A stretch of DNA of 33,391 bases from Ignavibacteriales bacterium (GTDB taxonomy: Bacteria > Bacteroidota > Ignavibacteria > Ignavibacteriales > Melioribacteraceae): positions 1-33,391 of the forward strand of contig JAFGPR010000146.1 of NCBI GenBank assembly GCA_016936095.1, given 5' to 3'. Shown one piece after another: positions 639 through 28,531 of this stretch. How positions within the stretch are numbered: position 1 is the stretch's first letter; every line of letters begins with the position of its first letter. A program made the position numbers and the translations under genes. The notes beneath the pieces were generated by a model. The model worked only from the letters and a program-made list of their open reading frames with translations, ran no database searches and was not told where the DNA came from.

Positions 639-670
639 AATCAACCATAGGGTTAGCCCTATGGTTGATT
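639..670. terminator. Bidirectional terminator-like hairpin between convergent pckA and flotillin
   Basis: Perfect 14-bp inverted repeat AATCAACCATAGGG-TTAG-CCCTATGGTTGATT between convergent genes. Confidence 0.75.
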
Positions 671-2123: not shown

Positions 2124-2870
2124 TTAATATTTATTTACAACTAAAAAATTATCTTTATTTATTTTAGTAACAACAACTCTTTCGCCGTCAGTTATTTCGT
2201 TCAAATCATTAGTAATTGCATCAACTACAACTGAATGCCCACCGACTAAAATATTAACTTTACCTCTACCCATTCTTTTAATAGTGGTATATACAATTCC
2301 TTCCTTGCCTACCAACTCATTTAAATTAATTGCTATATCATTCAAATCAAAATTAATCAAATATAATCCAATCTTATTAAGATTTGGATCAATGTTATTT
2401 ATAATTTCATTAATAAATTTTTCCCTATCTAACTTTATATCTTCAATAGACAAATAACTAATAATTTGTTTTAATTGACTATCAATTATTTCTTTTGCCA
2501 AATCCCCAATTTGACTTTCTGTCAGATTAAGTAATCTTTCTGCAGCTTTGTCCATAACCATTGGTTCGGTACTAATACCAACAATACATTTATAAGAAAC
2601 ATCAACTTTAATATTTTTCAAGGTTAATACTTTCTGAATTTGAGAAACAATGGTGATTGGAGATAAACTTAAGTATTTATGACTCTGTAAAAATGGTATA
2701 ATAAAAGCACCACCACCTCTATAACATTTTGCCGCTCTATTTCTATTTACCTTTCCAAATACCACTAATATTTTATCTGAGGGACATTTCTTATAATTCA
2801 TTAGGATAAAAATCATAATAATAAAAATTATTAGAATCATTCCAGAAAATAAAAATAAAGGAGAAATCAT
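2124..2870 (-). CDS. Chimeric protein: flotillin-type TM + SPFH N-terminal half joined to an NfeD-type C-terminal OB-fold
   Basis: Residues ~1-180 align without gaps to the adjacent flotillin (about half identical by eye). Residues ~187-248 (GKEGIVYTTIKRMGRGKVNILVGG...ITDGERVVVTKINKDNFLVVNKY) align to the C-terminus of the adjacent NfeD (CVGTVYLTIKGKDGGKVQVVV...IKTGEEIIVTNVINDNLLVVNKY). The flotillin coiled coil is absent. Confidence 0.85.
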   Translation of the reverse strand: MISPLFLFSGMILIIFIIMIFILMNYKKCPSDKILVVFGKVNRNRAAKCYRGGGAFIIPFLQSHKYLSLSPITIVSQIQKVLTLKNIKVDVSYKCIVGISTEPMVMDKAAERLLNLTESQIGDLAKEIIDSQLKQIISYLSIEDIKLDREKFINEIINNIDPNLNKIGLYLINFDLNDIAINLNELVGKEGIVYTTIKRMGRGKVNILVGGHSVVVDAITNDLNEITDGERVVVTKINKDNFLVVNKY

Positions 2871-2884
2871 TTTAATTCCCGATA

Positions 2885-3469
2885 CTAATATTTGTTTACA
2901 ACCAATAAATTATCATTTATCACATTAGTGACAATAATTTCTTCACCAGTTTTTATAACCTCATCATTTTCAGAAATTGCATCAAGAGTTAGCAATTGTT
3001 CTTTAACAACCACTTGAACTTTACCTCCGTCTTTGCCTTTAATCGTTAAGTAAACAGTTCCCACGCATCCTATTGATTCCAAAAGGTTTACTGTTCCATC
3101 TGCCTCTAATTTTTTCATCTTTTTAAAAATAAAAGCAATAAAATAAGCAACCAAGACACCCGCCCCAATACTGAATAATAAAATAAAGATTGATCCGATA
3201 GCTGTGTTTTCATATAACACTAACCCAACAAGTCCGAACATCATTATAAAGGCAGTAATACCTTGAAAAGTCAAAATATGCAATCCAGCATCGTGGTCAC
3301 CAATTCCGGAATGATCAAAATCTGTGTGTACATCTAAGTCACCGTCACCACCAAAATCACCACCAATTATCATCATTATCATTCTGACGATAAAAATTGT
3401 TCCTCCGCCAATCGCACAAATAAAATAGATTTTTCCCATAAAGTTCAGAGCATCAAAATAATCCATCAT
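2885..3469 (-). CDS. NfeD-like membrane protein with C-terminal OB-fold
   Basis: N-terminal TM segments, acidic/His loop, C-terminal beta-rich domain (GCVGTVYLTIKGKDGGKVQVVVKEQ...LVVNKY). SD GGGAGG. Adjacent to flotillin genes, as is typical of NfeD. Confidence 0.85.
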   Translation of the reverse strand: MMDYFDALNFMGKIYFICAIGGGTIFIVRMIMMIIGGDFGGDGDLDVHTDFDHSGIGDHDAGLHILTFQGITAFIMMFGLVGLVLYENTAIGSIFILLFSIGAGVLVAYFIAFIFKKMKKLEADGTVNLLESIGCVGTVYLTIKGKDGGKVQVVVKEQLLTLDAISENDEVIKTGEEIIVTNVINDNLLVVNKY

Positions 3470-3490: not shown

Positions 3491-4138
3491 TTAGTTTATT
3501 TTAATAAACATTTCTTCGTATTCAGACCAAGAATATACTATTTCCTGGTTTGCAATTCTATTATAAGTCCCTGATGCCACAATTGAAAATGTACCTGCGA
3601 TAATTTTATATTCAATACCAAGGTCATGAACAATATCGCTTTCTAGCTCAGCATTTTCATTTATGCCAGAAGAAAACTCAGATACCGTTAACTCAAAAAC
3701 CTTTTTTATATCTTTTGTCAAAGGATTGGTATAAATGAGCAAGTCAACTCGCGAATAAGACTGACTAGAATCATGCCATGGCTCGACAAGTAACTCCATA
3801 TTTTCATCGCCCATTAAATTTCGTAATGAAATAGATAACAATTTATTACATTCAAAAGAATTAAAACTAATTGAATTTAACAAAACAATTTCCTCGCTAA
3901 TCTTGTAAATGTCAAGTCTCATTGGTTTATCAAAAACATATTCAGGATAGACTAAATAATGCTTTTCTTCATTAATCATATATCTGACAACATTAATGTC
4001 ATTAGAGTCATATTCTGAAAAAATTGAATAAATATGCTCTTTAAATTCATTCTCTGTAATTTGTCTTTTAGGTTCTTCATTACATGAAATAATTATGATA
4101 AGAATTATCAAAATAAAAAAAGAATAGAAGAGTTTCAT
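3491..4138 (-). CDS. Predicted lipoprotein of unknown function
   Basis: Signal peptide with lipobox-like IIISC-N; SD GGAGG; in operon between ClC and NfeD. Confidence 0.7.
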   Translation of the reverse strand: MKLFYSFFILIILIIIISCNEEPKRQITENEFKEHIYSIFSEYDSNDINVVRYMINEEKHYLVYPEYVFDKPMRLDIYKISEEIVLLNSISFNSFECNKLLSISLRNLMGDENMELLVEPWHDSSQSYSRVDLLIYTNPLTKDIKKVFELTVSEFSSGINENAELESDIVHDLGIEYKIIAGTFSIVASGTYNRIANQEIVYSWSEYEEMFIKIN

Positions 4139-27595: not shown

Positions 27596-28531
27596 ATGAA
27601 CGATTTTGATGTGATACCTTATTTAATTTATTGTATCGGTGGACTTTTTGTTTTGATCTTATTCACAAAAATGTTTTTTATAGTCAAGCAACAAACTACT
27701 GTAGTAATCGAACGATTCGGAAGATTTAAGAGAATTGCATCTCCCGGTTTAAGAATGAAAATACCTTTTATTGACCAGATCATTGCGCGTGTTAACATGC
27801 GGATCAGACAACTAGATGTGGGTGTAGAAACTAAAACAGATGATGACGTATTTGTTATGGTGCAGGTATCCGTTCAATACTTTGTTATTCCCGAAAAAGT
27901 TTATGATGCTTTCTACAAGTTAAATAATCCCGAAGGGCAAATAACTTCCTACGTATTTGATGTAATTCGTGCTGAAATTCCAACAATTGAACTTGATGAT
28001 GTTTTCAGAGAAAAAGACAGAGTGGCACAAAGCGTAAAAGAAAGTCTTTCTGATGTTATGAAAGATTATGGGTATGATATTGTGAAAAGTCTTATTACTG
28101 ATATTGATCCTGCACAAGTTGTAAAAACAGCTATGAACGAAAAAGAAGCAGCAAAGCGAATTAGACAAGCCACATTAGACAAAGCTGAAGCAGATAAAAT
28201 ACGAGTTGTTAAAAATGCAGAAGCAGAAGCTGAAAGCAAAAAATTACAAGGAGAAGGATTAGCACAGCAAAGAGTTGCAATTGCGAGAGGTATGAAAGAG
28301 TCGGTTGAGATATTAAAATCTGTTACAGAAAGTTCGGGAAATGAAGTATTAATTCAATTGCTAATAACTCAATATTTTGACACATTAGATTCAATGGCTA
28401 AACATAGTTCATCAAATACAATTATGCTACCTCATAATCCTGCTGGTATAAATTCATTTTTTGAAGAAATACGAAATACACTTATTGCTGCGAAATTAGT
28501 AGAAACAGATCACACAAAAGGGAAGAAATAA
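27596..28531 (+). CDS. SPFH/stomatin-prohibitin family membrane protein
   Basis: N-terminal TM, FIVKQQTTVVIERFGRFKRIASPGLRMKIPFID, EKDRVAQSVKESLSDVMKDYGYDIVKSLITDIDP, Ala/Glu-rich coiled coil. SD GGAGG. Confidence 0.93.
   Translation: MNDFDVIPYLIYCIGGLFVLILFTKMFFIVKQQTTVVIERFGRFKRIASPGLRMKIPFIDQIIARVNMRIRQLDVGVETKTDDDVFVMVQVSVQYFVIPEKVYDAFYKLNNPEGQITSYVFDVIRAEIPTIELDDVFREKDRVAQSVKESLSDVMKDYGYDIVKSLITDIDPAQVVKTAMNEKEAAKRIRQATLDKAEADKIRVVKNAEAEAESKKLQGEGLAQQRVAIARGMKESVEILKSVTESSGNEVLIQLLITQYFDTLDSMAKHSSSNTIMLPHNPAGINSFFEEIRNTLIAAKLVETDHTKGKK

Follow-up and report, generated by a model that had tools for sequence, protein, structure and literature searches.

Why an operon that already encodes a complete NfeD and a complete flotillin should carry, between the two, a further gene that appears to join a part of each is the question raised by the locus described here. 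The DNA analysed (33,391 nucleotides, hereafter the window) is one whole contig from a 2.6-Mb metagenome-assembled genome (MAG) of an Ignavibacteriales bacterium. An earlier reading, made from the sequence alone, had proposed that the gene is a flotillin N-terminal half fused to the C-terminal OB-fold of NfeD. We therefore set out to establish what this protein is, how it may have arisen, how widely it occurs and what it might do beside its two apparent parents.

Results

Domain layout of the chimera

The features of the locus are collected in Table 1. The sequence-only reading had put the first ~180 residues at about half identical to the adjoining flotillin without gaps, and this is borne out by a gap-free alignment of residues 1-183 at 48.6% identity. 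The protein gave two Pfam matches of unequal strength: Band_7 (PF01145) is unambiguous over residues 30-180 (E 8.1e-16, 59 bits vs a cut-off of 23.6), whilst NfeD (PF01957) is matched over residues 184-238 at E 8e-4 but, with 20.1 bits, falls under its cut-off of 29.1. Profile and fold together place the chimera in the SPFH/Band 7 superfamily, and its SPFH region is of the flotillin subgroup, the best PDB sequence matches being flotillin-1/2. Over the last 65 residues it shares 43% identity with the OB domain of the adjoining NfeD, and the ending LVVNKY is indeed common to the two proteins. The switch in homology described earlier is present, but not at residue ~185 (near nt 2315) as first thought; we place it at residue 180/181 (nt ~2330), where the SPFH sequence ..LNDIA is followed by INLNE.., because INLNE (181-185) already matches the NfeD of a sister species (GTINLNE).

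Table 1. Features of the chimera locus, in window coordinates
Feature	Position	Strand	Basis or remarks
SPFH-OB chimera gene	2124..2870	(-)	248 aa, ATG start; Band_7 + NfeD domains
Chimera N-terminal transmembrane helix	2799..2861	(-)	residues 4-24; AlphaFold2 H4-24, hydrophobic sequence
Flotillin-derived part of chimera (TM, SPFH1, SPFH2)	2331..2870	(-)	residues 1-180
NfeD-derived OB-fold of chimera	2127..2330	(-)	residues 181-248; own-NfeD clade, AlphaFold2, PDB matches
Full-length flotillin, 470 aa	687..2099	(-)	Band_7 + Flot; PDB flotillin-1/2 matches
NfeD partner, 194 aa, TM helices + OB domain	2885..3469	(-)	homologous to flotillin-upstream NfeD genes
Small gene for a putative lipoprotein, preceding nfeD	3491..4138	(-)	ORF; no Pfam match
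Intrinsic terminator after flotillin	639..670	(-)	14-bp stem, T-rich tail; strong

In a flotillin, SPFH is followed by an EA-rich coiled coil and, at the C-terminus, a Flot domain. Both are missing from the chimera, as had been noted for the coiled coil: PF15975 finds no match and the reading frame stops after the OB-fold, whilst NF058507 scores 73 bits vs a cut-off of 700. The multi-pass transmembrane N-terminal region of an NfeD is likewise absent, a single N-terminal helix leading instead into SPFH. The full-length NfeD next door is itself not recognised by the Pfam NfeD profile, which matches the chimera's copy of the OB domain, if weakly. The window also holds a second SPFH protein, stomatin/QmcA-like, far from the chimera operon (27596-28531, (+), 311 aa, Band_7 E 8e-32).

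Predicted fold

Alignments that mixed SPFH and OB sequences put the OB rows in the wrong place, so the OB region was modelled by itself from a separate OB alignment, and the whole-protein model used SPFH rows only. For residues 180-248 AlphaFold2 predicts a five-stranded barrel (pLDDT 90.4), and the best five PDB matches of this model in Foldseek are all NfeD domains: YuaF 2k14 (TM 0.79), 3cp0, PH1510-C 3wwv, 2k5h and YbbJ in 8z5g. Model and matches agree that the C-terminal segment is an OB-fold, and they back the weak Pfam NfeD match. The whole-chimera model (pLDDT 83.3, with a spread of 57.7-83.3 across five models) runs in the order of one N-terminal helix, SPFH1, SPFH2 and OB, and its best Foldseek matches are the flotillins 9l3g (E 1.3e-12) and 9bq2, with YuaF lower in the list. 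These data confirm the chimera as a flotillin SPFH N-terminal half fused to an NfeD OB-fold, with no coiled coil.

Operon neighbours and translation signals

In many genomes across the phylum a homologue of the adjoining NfeD is encoded upstream of a flotillin, and most of the flotillins that we recovered directly follow an nfeD gene. The putative lipoprotein gene, possibly the first of the operon, also lies upstream of nfeD in the sister species (70% identity, dN/dS 0.12). The Shine-Dalgarno (SD) energies in the two species are -4.3/-3.8 kcal/mol for the chimera, -12.2/-12.1 for nfeD and -11.6/-11.6 for flotillin, the chimera's being weak only relative to its operon neighbours, since it ranks 12/27 in the window. 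That this signal is weak in both species suggests a minor product; the chimera does, however, start 1-14 nt past the end of nfeD, and translational coupling could raise its expression.

A second genome, conservation and selection

A second MAG of the same genus, an Ignavibacteriales genome from Zodletone Spring (JAFGID010000181.1), carries the order lipoprotein-nfeD-chimera-flotillin with the same junction, which means that the concern that the fusion was a misassembly in one MAG can be set aside. Retention of the architecture in a second species also suggests more than chance. The three proteins have diverged to very different extents, identity between the species being 95.5% for flotillin, 77.3% for NfeD and 62.5% for the chimera, and GC3 in the chimera is low. 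Its reading frame is nevertheless free of stop codons in both species, whereas none of 2000 copies simulated neutrally at the same divergence was stop-free (about 18 stops expected). With dN/dS at 0.29 overall (SPFH 0.33, OB 0.19), compared with 0.05 for flotillin, these data indicate a gene under selection, looser than that on flotillin.

Of the SPFH positions that are near-invariant in flotillins, 27/63 are retained in both chimeras, so the SPFH side contacts may differ and the chimera may no longer join flotillin rings. Strand b7 is identical at 11/12 positions between the chimeras, compared with 4/12 vs own flotillin. We also considered a 13-residue identical run (NDLNEITDGERVV) in OB b3-b4, a region which in S. 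aureus forms the flotillin-binding face, but rejected it as a conservation signal (P 0.10 within the OB, 0.16 for the whole protein).

Distribution

The full-length architecture was sought in 79 genomes of the family, 164 of the order, 391 of the class and 396 of the phylum, about 720 of them distinct. Only the two congeneric genomes carry the chimera, and no other SPFH-OB fusion was found among these about 720 genomes, the remaining matches being long flotillin-type ORFs or separate NfeD proteins. A PF01957 scan of 297 genomes listed NfeD ORFs in a short (~145-215 aa) and a long (~430-520 aa) class, with none among those listed at the 230-300 aa expected for a fusion. Plasmid, phage and viral-contig searches returned flotillins, but none that matched the chimera over 80% or more of its length, and a single-sequence scan of genome contigs gave no match. 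As far as searched, which is to the level of the phylum, the fusion is limited to one genus.

Flotillins of the chimera-operon type are sporadic in the order (4/164 genomes), suggesting lateral gain of the operon. During these searches nfeD-flotillin pairs were also seen on large viral contigs of IMG/VR (L071, L073, L075-L077, L086), and flotillins in two named phages, csAssE-Sib (OR575929.1) and Vibrio phage KIT04 (LC487410.1).

Origin of the fusion

In the OB tree the chimera's OB-fold and its own NfeD form one clade (support 97/87). The SPFH tree places the chimera inside the flotillins (35-row clade, 100/100), where it falls on a long branch with its own flotillin and three further ones, among them G010, at weak support (88/38). 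The SPFH half could not be placed cleanly as sister to its own flotillin, but sisterhood is not rejected (AU p 0.44 and 0.12). The fusion could have formed when two nfeD-flotillin operon copies underwent unequal crossover, a break in flotillin after SPFH being joined to a break in nfeD before the OB domain. A single such event would yield exactly the observed succession of genes, nfeD / floN-OB / flotillin. The spacer in front of flotillin, which is conserved and carries a strong SD, is likewise consistent with a crossover. The chimera would then have been retained as a separate, weakly translated gene. A crossover origin thus fits the sequence data, with the OB half in support and the SPFH half compatible.

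Discussion

Considering what this protein might do, some guidance comes from better studied assemblies. In S. aureus the PHB domain alone forms monomers and dimers, and higher multimers require the coiled coil; PHB and OBL, when isolated, both form dimers, and the OB of NfeD binds both the coiled coil of FloA and other OBs (PMC11222466). The wall of the human flotillin cage is built from the long helices after SPFH2 (PMC11260169). The reading that we favour, by analogy with these systems and with about an even chance of being right, is that the chimera is a minor, coiled-coil-less subunit that co-assembles with flotillin and NfeD. It would be anchored through its own TM/SPFH1, with the OB-fold on the same (cytoplasmic) side, and would enter the assembly by SPFH-SPFH side contacts together with the OB. 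As it combines SPFH and OB without a wall helix, it could in principle take a place on the rim at the membrane, where, instead of lengthening the ring wall, it would terminate, open or mark it. Co-transcription, co-assembly, low abundance and the wall-ending role are all features that we infer for it. The weak SD and absent coiled coil fit a minor subunit that ends or adapts an assembly better than they fit an abundant seed, and the chimera probably modifies the scaffold. More tentatively, it may be a built-in wall terminator, a dosage-controlled subunit whose OB replaces the wall helix and gives open or size-limited flotillin assemblies; we regard this specific form as rather doubtful.

The altered SPFH surface raises a different prospect, that the chimera forms a small complex of its own through SPFH dimers and OB-OB contacts, acting as a membrane receptor or chaperone and only sharing the operon. 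The many flotillin-invariant positions altered in both chimeras would be explained in this way, as would a strand b7 that resembles its counterpart in the other chimera far more than that of its own flotillin, and the dimerisation of the isolated S. aureus domains offers a precedent. We nonetheless consider it unlikely, though worth keeping in mind, given that the position between nfeD and flotillin is kept in both species and that NfeD's partner-binding domain is retained. If one instead considers the OB to be the working part, the chimera may be a tethered decoy, its SPFH serving as an anchor and its OB competing with NfeD for flotillin, or binding NfeD OBs, so as to tune NfeD entry. The tighter constraint on the OB than on SPFH, the grouping of this OB with the chimera's own NfeD and the finding in S. 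aureus that the OB binds flotillin's coiled coil all agree with such a role, but the SPFH half is under purifying selection too, and we think a decoy improbable.

Two remaining explanations deny the protein a function or an existence. A decaying by-product of the crossover, kept by chance, would suit a gene which evolves far faster than flotillin and has a weak SD and low GC3. Against this stand the frames free of stops in both species, the dN/dS of 0.29 and the neutral simulation, together with halves that both model with good confidence, making a by-product very unlikely. That the window is a metagenome contig might invite suspicion of an assembly artefact, a notion that the diverged Zodletone Spring MAG leaves with almost no credence.

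A natural SPFH-OB fusion constitutes genetic (Rosetta-stone type) support for a function of both domains in direct contact, and it bears on how SPFH cages are initiated, how they close and take in clients, and on NfeD's part in this. Control of cage closure by a wall-terminating subunit, like an SPFH-NfeD fusion itself, was not described in the literature that we searched, and the chimera offers a subunit naturally devoid of the coiled coil for testing what terminates flotillin assemblies.

Relationship to known systems

The flotillins of the SPFH2 group (FloT/YuaG, FloA; human 9bq2, 9l3g) share with the chimera a TM or membrane-inserted N-terminus followed by SPFH1 and SPFH2, but continue into a coiled coil, cap and Flot domain where the chimera has an OB-fold, and many of their invariant SPFH positions are changed in it. 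Short NfeD proteins of the NfeD2/YuaF type have the same C-terminal OB-fold, with YuaF 2k14, 3cp0 and PH1510-C 3wwv the closest structures, but reach it from a multi-pass TM region and not from one TM helix and SPFH. In QmcA-YbbJ (8z5g) and S. aureus FloA-NfeD, SPFH and OB cooperate as two proteins (PMC11222466; PMC13086221, 26-heterodimer cage), whereas the chimera is one polypeptide that stands beside a complete pair and has no wall helix. Recombination inside SPFH-NfeD operons is also evident in NfeD1b (ClpP-NfeD) and in the duplicated NfeD-SPFH1-SPFH1 operons, but there NfeD is joined to a protease or an entire SPFH gene is duplicated (PMC2636767). The parts of the chimera are thus known and the SPFH-NfeD partnership is established; their fusion beside a complete pair is, to judge from the literature covered, a new architecture.
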